The position numbers and the translations under genes are program-made. Of a DNA stretch of 64,000 nt, positions 21,421 to 23,070 are shown piece after piece (the stretch's first letter is position 1; each line of letters begins with the position of its first letter). Source of the stretch: Desulfolutivibrio sulfodismutans DSM 3696 (GTDB taxonomy: Bacteria > Desulfobacterota > Desulfovibrionia > Desulfovibrionales > Desulfovibrionaceae); NCBI RefSeq assembly GCF_013376455.1, contig NZ_CP045504.1:3369001-3433000 (forward strand). Reading direction: 5' to 3'. Below the pieces are notes generated by a model, which was not told where the DNA came from, did not search any database, and saw nothing but the letters and a program-made list of their open reading frames with translations.

Positions 21421-21954
21421 TTACCGCACCAGGTAGGCGTTGTCCTCGCCGTCGAGCTCGGCTAGGTGGACGTCCACATGTTCGCCCAGGGCGGTCTGGA
21501 CCTTTTTCCCCACATAGTCGGCCTGGATGGGCAGTTCCCGGTGCCCCCGGTCGATCAAGACCAGAAGCTCCACCTTGCGCGGCCGGCCGTAGTCCAGGAT
21601 GGCCTCCAGGGCGGCCCGGATGGTGCGGCCGGAGAAGAGCACGTCATCCACCAGGACGATTTTCTTGTCGTTGATGTCGAAGGGGATGTCGGTCTCGCCG
21701 ATATGCGGCTGGTTGTCGGAGTGGGTCCAGTCGTCGCGGTAGAGGTTGATGTCCAGCTTGCCCGACAGGATGTCGCAGCCCAGGCGGCCTTCCAAAACCT
21801 TTTTCAGGCGCTGGGCCAGCTCCACGCCCCGGCGCTGGATGCCGATAAACGCCAGGCCGCAGCCTTGGTCGTGGCGTTCGATGATCTCGAAGGCCAGCCG
21901 TTCGATGGTCCGGACCATGTCTTCAGCCGAGAGAATGCGGCGCTGTCGTTTCAT
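21421..21954 (-). CDS. pyrR: PyrR: pyrimidine regulator / uracil phosphoribosyltransferase
   Basis: The 177-residue protein contains the PRPP-binding motif VLVDDVLFSGRTIRAA and the PyrR-typical RRGVELA and DINLYRDDW segments. In Bacillus PyrR binds pyr leader RNA and has uracil phosphoribosyltransferase activity; in deltaproteobacteria the RNA role is less certain. I chose the ATG at 21954 (AGGG upstream); the frame is open to 22044. No pyr gene or PyrR-binding leader is visible here. Confidence 0.92.
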   Translation of the reverse strand: MKRQRRILSAEDMVRTIERLAFEIIERHDQGCGLAFIGIQRRGVELAQRLKKVLEGRLGCDILSGKLDINLYRDDWTHSDNQPHIGETDIPFDINDKKIVLVDDVLFSGRTIRAALEAILDYGRPRKVELLVLIDRGHRELPIQADYVGKKVQTALGEHVDVHLAELDGEDNAYLVR

Positions 21955-22099
21955 GGCGATCCCTGTGGGCGTGCTGTGCTGTGTCATGACGCCGACCCTA
22001 GCGGAAAAGGCCAAAGCGGGCAATGTCCGGGGTCGAACCGGCATTTCGGGAGGGTTGGCGAGGCGCTTTGGGCCTTGTGGGGTGGGTCGTTTCTCCTGT

Positions 22100-22128
22100 T
22101 TGACAAAGCCCCGGGCCGTGCTTACTTA
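22100..22128 (+). promoter_or_regulatory. possible promoter for the HesB-like pair
   Basis: A perfect TTGACA box (22100-22105) is followed 17 bases later by TACTTA, a poor -10. It lies 40 bp before the first HesB-like gene. Confidence 0.3.
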
Positions 22129-22166
22129 CGGGCCTCAGCCAATTTCTCCCCAGGAGGTCGACAGAC

Positions 22167-22511
22167 ATGGTCGAAATTACCGAGGCCGCCCGCCGCGAAT
22201 TGGACGGGTATTTCGCGGACAAGGAAAAAGCCCCCATTCGGATTTATCTTTCCGCCGGAGGGTGCTCCGGCCCCCGCCTGGCCCTGGCCCTTGACGAGGC
22301 CAAGGACACGGATGATCAGTTCGATGTGGAGGGCTACAATTTCATCGTCGACAAGGAACTGGCCGCCCAGGCCGCTCCCATGCGCGTGGACATGTCCTAT
22401 ATGGGGTTCACCGTGCAGTCGAGCCTGGAGCTTGGCGACGGCGGTTGCGGCTGCTCCGGCGGATCATGCTCCTCCGGTTCGTGCAGCACGCCCGGTTCCT
22501 GCTGCTCATAG
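22167..22511 (+). CDS. HesB/IscA-like protein with Cys-rich tail (cysteine form)
   Basis: The 114-residue protein resembles the A-type iron-sulfur carrier fold: an N-terminal helix (TEAARRELDGYFADKE), then IRIYLSAGGCSGP with the first conserved cysteine, and a C-terminal cysteine-rich tail containing CGCSGGSCSS. It differs from classic IscA in having a longer Gly/Ser/Cys tail with repeated CS units. It probably binds an Fe-S cluster or metal in the cytosol. It is followed after 65 bp by a close paralogue whose matching cysteine codon is UGA. Both have strong AGGAG-type ribosome-binding sites. Confidence 0.85.
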   Translation: MVEITEAARRELDGYFADKEKAPIRIYLSAGGCSGPRLALALDEAKDTDDQFDVEGYNFIVDKELAAQAAPMRVDMSYMGFTVQSSLELGDGGCGCSGGSCSSGSCSTPGSCCS

Positions 22512-22576
22512 ATTCTGATCGTTACAGGGGGCCGTTCGTGAGGGCGGCCCTACTACACCTCCCAGGAGATACAGAT

Positions 22577-22897
22577 ATGGTCGAGCTCACCGAGGCCGCC
22601 CGCCAACAATTGGACGGGTATTTCGCCGACAAGGAAAAAAATCCCATCCGCATCTATCTCGCAACCGGCGGTTGAGCCGGTCCCAAGTTGTCTTTGGCTC
22701 TGGACGAGCCGAAGGATTCCGACGAAAAATTCGACACCAACGGGTACGTGTTTCTTGTGGACAAGGAATTGTCCCAGCAGGCCGGCCCCATGAAGGTGGA
22801 CATGACGTACATGGGCTTCACCGTGCAGTCAGGCCTTGAGCTTGGCGGCGGCGGGTGCGGGGGCTCGTGCTCGTCCGGTTCGTCGTGCTCCTGCTGA
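22577..22897 (+). CDS. HesB-like selenoprotein, UGA read as selenocysteine
   Basis: This is a tandem paralogue of the preceding gene (106 residues including Sec). The frame is MVELTEAARQQLDGYF and onward, with an in-frame TGA at 22673-22675 exactly where the first copy has the conserved TGC (GG-Cys-SGP versus GG-UGA-AGP). The frame continues unbroken to the stop at 22895-22897, with the same tail (GGCGGSCSSGSSC), so the gene is not decayed. A 9-bp hairpin with a GG-containing loop follows the UGA. HesB-like selenoproteins are a known family and Desulfovibrio-type bacteria make selenoproteins. An automated call would split this into two fragments (22577-22675 and from 22688). A terminator follows at 22925. 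Confidence 0.85.
22692..22714 (+). promoter_or_regulatory. candidate bacterial SECIS element
   Basis: Seventeen bases after the UGA, CUUUGGCUC (22692-22700) pairs with GAGCCGAAG (22706-22714): nine pairs including one U-G, closing a 5-base loop UGGAC. The loop Gs lie 27-28 bases after the UGA. Position and a G in the apical loop fit the bacterial SECIS rule for SelB binding. Confidence 0.75.
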
Positions 22898-22924
22898 AAA
22901 CGCCGACGTGACGACCTCCTCTTT

Positions 22925-22959
22925 CAGGCGATATCCGTATGGATATCGCCTGTTTTTTT
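22925..22959 (+). terminator. intrinsic terminator of the HesB-like genes
   Basis: A perfect 12-bp stem (22925-22936 with 22941-22952), loop GTAT, is followed by seven T residues. Confidence 0.95.
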
Positions 22960-22987
22960 GACAAAGGACGAATATTCGGACTAAGGT
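22958..22987 (+). promoter_or_regulatory. possible promoter for the response regulator gene
   Basis: TTGACA (22958-22963) lies in the T tract of the preceding terminator; 18 bases later TAAGGT matches three of six -10 positions. It would drive the gene at 23071. Confidence 0.35.
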
Positions 22988-23070
22988 GCTCAAGGCAGCT
23001 TCATGCGGTTTCGTTACCCAGCCGGAATCGGCCTGACGCGCGATGGCCGGTTTTTTTAAAGGAGTGCCCG

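Follow-up and report, generated by a model that had tools for sequence, protein, structure and literature searches.

A predicted HesB-like selenoprotein gene in tandem with its cysteine-type paralogue in Desulfolutivibrio sulfodismutans and related genomes

The stretch of DNA analysed here (the window; 64,000 nucleotides, G000:C1:3369001-3433000, from a genome of 4.44 Mb) contains two HesB-like genes in head-to-tail arrangement (22167-22511 and 22577-22897, separated by a gap of 65 bp). Judged by comparison among related genomes, the second of them is a genuine selenoprotein gene, because its TGA is conserved, the codons of its SECIS hairpin are frozen, the selenocysteine (Sec) machinery is present, and the TGA+SECIS pattern co-occurs with selA. 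Taken together, the pair would be explained by tandem A-type proteins with Sec at position 33 of copy 2, inserted by way of the SECIS element, and Cys at position 33 of copy 1, a reading to which a probability of about 0.88 is assigned.

Organization of the tandem gene pair

The features of the region are the following (window coordinates):

21421-22044, minus strand: pyrR, divergent neighbour (NF003549 PyrR, 230.6 bits, cut-off 138); context, not part of the recoding
22100-22105, plus strand: TTGACA, -35-like hexamer without a good -10 partner, read from the sequence
22152-22157, plus strand: AGGAGG, ribosome-binding-type site of the Cys gene, read from the sequence
22167-22511, plus strand: copy 1, Cys-type HesB-like gene, 114 aa, stop TAG, C33 encoded by TGC at 22263-22265
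22528-22551, plus strand: intercistronic hairpin without T run, possible processing site, from the fold of the 65-base gap
22564-22569, plus strand: AGGAGA, ribosome-binding-type site of the Sec gene, read from the sequence
22577-22897, plus strand: copy 2, predicted Sec-type HesB-like gene, 106 aa, Sec33, stop TGA at 22895-22897
22673-22675, plus strand: in-frame TGA, predicted to be read as Sec at position 33 (aligned Cys in the paralogue; TGA kept in the genus)
22691-22715, plus strand: predicted SECIS hairpin, 10 pairs in the window, apical part GGCUC-UGGAC-GAGCC at 22696-22710
22925-22959, plus strand: intrinsic terminator 3' of the Sec gene, 12-pair stem and T run, fold z -4.19

A promoter scan upstream of the Cys gene found none, and a terminator scan found none between the Cys and Sec genes of the window. 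That a strong terminator follows the Sec gene, while none was found between the two genes, suggests a single transcript in the window genus, and the tandem genes are probably transcribed together as far as 22925-22959. The 65-base intergenic gap folds at -24 kcal/mol (shuffle z -2.08), and a GC-rich stretch like that at 22528-22551 is present by eye in the other two genomes of the genus. In other genera, T-run terminators (L032, L036, L043, L046, and L049) and TTGACA hexamers (L032, L033, L036, L045, and L049), both found by eye between the twins, suggest that the two genes may be controlled separately there.

The in-frame UGA at codon 33

The sole earlier in-frame stop of copy 2 is the TGA at 22673-22675 (codon 33), situated opposite the TGC of copy 1 at 22263-22265, and the frame runs past it into conserved sequence and remains open until the stop at 22895, just as the first-pass annotation had described. 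The mark by which a selenoprotein gene is recognized, i.e., an in-frame UGA opposite the Cys of homologues with a frame conserved beyond it, is found here. In all three genomes of the genus (window genome included), one copy carries the TGA and its neighbour is free of a stop.

Gene finding under the standard code splits copy 2 into two fragments (22445-22675 and 22688-22897), as would befit a pseudogene cut at codon 33, resulting from a nonsense mutation, a sequencing error, or the decay of a paralogue. This is extremely improbable: it is contradicted by the conservation of the TGA, which is found at the same codon in 97 unique copies of the family, and by the frozen codons of the hairpin described below; furthermore, the C-terminal half is conserved, and the TGA+SECIS pattern is absent where selA is absent among the family genomes drawn.

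The SECIS hairpin

Concerning the hairpin, bases 19-28 (the T of the TGA being base 1) can pair with bases 34-43 around the loop UGGAC, such that the placement originally proposed holds, whereas ten pairs can form instead of the nine claimed, which extend from +17 to +39 beyond the codon. Bacterial SECIS elements are hairpins situated soon after the UGA whose apical loop has a G as its first or second base, and the loop UGGAY of all 97 Sec copies conforms to this rule.

These copies derive from 200 unique family proteins of the fetched loci, of which 167 (97 Sec, 70 Cys) were analysed for codons and shuffles; the 33 dropped either exceeded an E-value of 1e-20 or lacked the motif [UC]xG[PTQ] where it was expected, and among them are the three divergent TGA copies of L029-L031, Cys-less paralogues, and Cys copies with, e.g., CxGM. 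Pairing and alignment refer to a subset of 49 of the 97 Sec rows and 34 of the 70 Cys rows, hand-picked to thin near-copies. Counting from the Sec codon, codons +8 to +11 are GCT CTG GAY GAG in every one of the 97 Sec copies and in none of the 70 Cys copies, many of these rows being close relatives, such that the counts do not represent independent events. The corresponding peptide ALDE is also encoded by 53 of the 70 Cys copies, none of which uses the four codons (GCT occurs in two), so that the amino acids alone cannot explain the frozen core. The 12-base core occurs a single time in the 64-kb window when both strands are searched. A Cys copy of another locus (L063, 3542-3604) reads GCTCTGGATGAA, one base off the SECIS core, and might constitute a remnant or a recent partial conversion.

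The core of the hairpin (GGCUC-UGGAY-GAGCC) consists of a five-pair stem and the UGGAY loop, and its five apical pairs form in all 49 Sec rows examined. All ten pairs of the window hairpin, in contrast, form in only 4 of the 49 (the three genus genomes and L068), the lower stem being mostly unpaired outside the window genus. Of the hairpin as first drawn, the apical part and the loop are thus general, whereas the full length is nearly confined to the genus.

The stability of the window hairpin is unimpressive (32 of 200 dinucleotide shuffles fold as well), and the dinucleotide-shuffle z of -0.89 rules out stability as a stand-alone proof of a SECIS element; synonymous-codon shuffles of the window are as stable in 4.5% of cases. 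Across the family, the mean synonymous-shuffle z is -1.62 for the 97 Sec copies versus -0.33 for the 70 Cys copies, and p<=0.05 is reached by 48 of 97 versus 5 of 70, which is weaker evidence than that of the codons. Formal covariation was set aside as support, being weak and not clearly above the controls: the score of 0.078 (shuffled mean 0.070) is reached by 15 of 500 shuffles, and one pair (2 cells) is changed on both sides, which is below the shuffled mean of 2.4 and below all six slid versions. An Rfam scan of 22500-23000 returned no SECIS match, a result taken as uninformative since, to our knowledge, bacterial SECIS elements in coding regions are not modelled in Rfam.

Selenocysteine machinery and its co-occurrence with the pattern

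All components for which the first-pass annotation had asked are present in the window genome, namely selA (602.9 bits, over cut-off), selB (372.8 bits, cut-off 242.25), selD (339.3 bits, over cut-off), and tRNA-Sec, the product of selC (84.2 bits, over cut-off; anticodon tca according to ARAGORN). The selD gene (L018 1501-2427) itself exhibits a single in-frame TGA, which fits a SelD that contains Sec.

A 36-base TGA+SECIS pattern was searched for in 199 genomes of the order and found in 167, whereas selA was matched in 180 (179 over cut-off). Pattern and selA occur together in 162 genomes, the pattern alone in 5, selA alone in 18, and neither in 14; for the 139 genomes drawn from the family, the corresponding numbers are 121, 0, 9, and 9, i.e., none of the nine family genomes without selA carries the pattern. 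The genomes with the pattern and without selA (G015, G025, G048, G060, and G069) are each at most 94% complete, and the 18 selA-positive genomes without the exact pattern include G066, whose selA match is weak (E 1.9e-6). Fisher tests of the association give p = 3e-9 and 1e-9, values that ignore relatedness. Two matches to the pattern are found in one genome (G138:C5 and G138:C14).

With this machinery, Sec33 would be inserted at the UGA at 22673 by SelB acting on the apical hairpin, which begins about 20 nt downstream, within the coding sequence. The coding use of the UGA and the constraint on the SECIS element follow from the comparison of copies, whereas the binding of SelB is a step that we infer.

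Protein family and predicted function

Both copies exceed the cut-offs of NF038090 IscA_HesB_Se (Sec copy 123.1 bits, Cys copy 121.2 bits, cut-off 85) and of PF01521 (34.9 and 31 bits, cut-off 26.3). The scores to TIGR01911 HesB_rel_seleno (35.3 and 29.8 bits) lie under the cut-off of 66.35, and those of the Sec copy to the IscA, SufA, and ErpA equivalog models (28.3, 23, and 22.7 bits) lie under the cut-offs of 150.6, 136.2, and 117, respectively. The AlphaFold2 model of the Sec copy has a mean pLDDT of 80.1, with residues 91-106 under 50; searched with Foldseek, the predicted fold matched IscA and SufA (best E 1.0e-06), and Sec33 aligns with the first conserved Cys of the HesB-type proteins 1nwb and 2apn. 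C94 and C98 are invariant across 56 aligned proteins. Copy 1 ends in a Cys-rich CGC...C tail, and the tails of the twins differ, with CGC in the window Cys copy and CGGSC in the window Sec copy. The three-Cys signature of IscA and SufA is C...CxC; the Cys copy possesses C33...CGC, whereas the Sec copy (U33...C94GGSC98) departs from the signature.

Because the predicted fold matches, Sec33 lies at the first conserved Cys, and C94 and C98 are invariant, the best guess is a role in Fe-S or other soft-metal or sulfur handling, in which Sec33 might serve as ligand or nucleophile. In the most likely working, residue 33 and the Cys-rich tail would bind or pass on a metal, an Fe-S cluster, or a sulfur or selenium adduct, the Sec form presumably being the more reactive of the two, produced under selenium supply, and the Cys form providing a selenium-independent activity.

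Instead of such a selenium-dependent and selenium-independent backup pair, the two copies might be specialists with different partners or metals, or members of a mixed dimer, for which the odds are put somewhat short of even. Many lineages retain both types, the tails differ as described (CGC versus CGGSC), and the T-run terminators between the genes in five loci would allow separate control. The window Sec copy shares, however, 77, 76, and 72% identity with the Cys copies of the three genus genomes (G000, G001, and G002, respectively), and the likely co-transcription in the window genus would be equally compatible with isoforms that are in part redundant.

Distribution and origin of the twins

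Matches to NF038090 are found in 194 of the 199 genomes of the order (183 over cut-off). One family genome (G187) contains nine of them, an unusual expansion. The pairing of a Cys and a Sec copy side by side, pointed out initially for the window, recurs in all three genus genomes and more widely in at least 36 of 103 genomes, taking one copy with TGA and one free of stops at most 5 kb apart on one strand among the matches listed (150 matches in 103 genomes, such that pair counts are lower bounds). Within these at least 36 genomes, the Sec copy is situated upstream in 29 and the Cys copy, as in the window, in 7. Among the 89 Sec-anchored loci (L078-L166), two or more family matches (E<=1e-12) lie within about 6.3 kb in 66, some of them representing further paralogues.

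Of these 89 loci, 71 contain a PyrR-like match, which in every one of the 71 is divergent with respect to the HesB-like gene closest to it (median gap 168 bases); pyrR adjoins the Sec copy in 55 loci and a TGA-free copy in 16. For the other neighbours tested from the window, matches were obtained in 16, 10, 16, 16, and 4 of the 89 loci. The divergent PyrR-like gene indicates that most of these loci represent one old site; the adjacency has no obvious functional link, and the site may simply be old. In the window, homology of pyrR starts at residue 31, and the true start lies probably near 21954.

A tree of 177 rows (97 Sec and 80 scored as Cys, a few of the latter, e.g., L122_Cq, without a clear Cys motif) requires at least 17 changes between the Sec and Cys labels, of which starred branches force 6 or more; based on 110 columns and with 80 open forks, it is not firm. 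The nearest rows outside the own clade of each window copy are those of the other type from the same genus. Since the 97 Sec copies share a homologous SECIS core, the Sec type is probably ancestral, and the Cys sisters would have arisen by repeated duplication with a change from Sec to Cys. For HesB-like proteins, the available part of a 2006 survey (PMC1794560, Table 1) lists two Sec-to-Cys and no Cys-to-Sec events.

The likeness of the twins within a genus could also stem from a single old Sec/Cys pair kept alike by gene conversion, without repeated duplication, an account that is a live alternative although judged less likely than not. The fraction of identical codons between the twins of the window genus is 52/74 for codons 1-32, 47/64 for codons 51-84, and 12/36 for codons 33-50, which comprise the SECIS element, and this pattern looks as if a SECIS island had been spared; the Cys copy of L063, one base from the SECIS core, points in the same direction, and the common site beside divergent pyrR (71/89) fits one old pair equally well as repeated tandem duplication. 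However, the three genomes of the window genus are not independent, gene order varies by lineage (Cys first in 7 and Sec first in 29, among the matches listed), and Sec-Cys similarity within genomes is hardly above that across genomes in the five groups tested, which argues for little ongoing conversion; the largest excess is 0.75 versus 0.71 nucleotide identity (window genus, codons 51-84). Ongoing conversion between the twins was rejected on account of the little sign of it in these five groups.

Going beyond repeated duplication from a Sec ancestor, it is conceivable, though on present evidence unlikely, that the entire order exhibits repeated Sec/Cys pairing, mostly at the pyrR site, in which the Cys twin sheds its SECIS element and a selenium-tuned pair or mixed dimer acts in Fe-S or sulfur/selenium handling. 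If true, this pairing would amount to an experiment, repeated by nature, on the benefit of a single selenium atom.

Further HesB-like paralogues

A third, divergent HesB-like gene of the window genome (G000:C1:2383752-2384102; L031 1417-1767) carries a TGA at the position of the UxGP motif, as it does in the two other genomes of the genus (L029 and L030), to which it is 65-69% identical; the next matches are at about 28-42% (among the matches listed for 149 family genomes). Its product has no Pfam match at E<=1, and a piece of 88 residues reaches 33.4 bits to NF038090, below the cut-off of 85. The accompanying hairpin (GGUUC-UGGAY-GAACC) keeps the loop and has a C-G pair swapped for U-A. The gene is flanked by that of a Crp/Fnr-type regulator, located on the opposite strand, and by that of a 4Fe-4S protein, which starts with MKRRAFLK (Tat-like by eye) and has HmcB, below cut-off, as its best model.

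In L045 (about 1982-2284), a HesB-like frame without the Cys (E, D, or A at this place) keeps a GGxCGGxC tail, and such frames are also found in the Solidesulfovibrio-like loci L047, L049, L051, L052, L055, L063-L065, L097, and L111. Another type, with S for Cys and no Cys-rich tail, lies beside the Sec copy in L089, L115, L116, L125, and L132 (about 2270-2760 on the reverse complement of each locus). Two Sec-type copies are situated near each other in L073 (1083-1145 and 1891-1953).

Comparison with known systems

Publications on HesB-like selenoproteins date back to at least 2005-2006, and we know of no settled function for these proteins. According to the parts available of the respective publications, they form an established family (PMC1794560, PMC1914089, PMC13188914) and were reported in Desulfovibrio in 2006-2007 (PMC1794560, PMC1914089), with one each in D. 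vulgaris and D. desulfuricans (PMC1794560, Table 3) and DVU_1382 as a named example (PMC1914089). A HesB-like selenoprotein with UGA and SECIS element is an already known kind, for which the NCBIfam model NF038090 exists. In the open-licence literature searched, no description was found of a recurrent tandem Sec/Cys HesB pairing beside a divergent pyrR. With a Sec twin and its matched Cys counterpart adjacent in one genome, the HesB-like function becomes accessible to deletion of either or both genes at a defined selenium supply, and the frozen codons provide a simple, searchable signature for the HesB-like Sec family.

The reported Desulfovibrio proteins, likened here by name and description, share with copy 2 the family name, the TGA as Sec, and the origin from related organisms; unlike for the window pair, the available parts of both reports (PMC1794560, PMC1914089) mention no Cys twin. 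From NF038090 IscA_HesB_Se, whose name carries 'Se', no essential difference was found, and both copies score over its cut-off; the model describes single proteins and says nothing on the tandem Sec/Cys arrangement. TIGR01911 HesB_rel_seleno, given as the family of HesB-like selenoproteins with the motif UxGP in the available part of PMC13188914, shares this motif with the Sec copy (UAGP), whose score lies below the cut-off. With the A-type carriers IscA and SufA (PDB 1x0g, 1s98, 2d2a), the Sec copy has in common the predicted fold and the position of the first conserved Cys, whereas Sec would replace this Cys, and its tail is C-x3-C compared with C-x-C in IscA.
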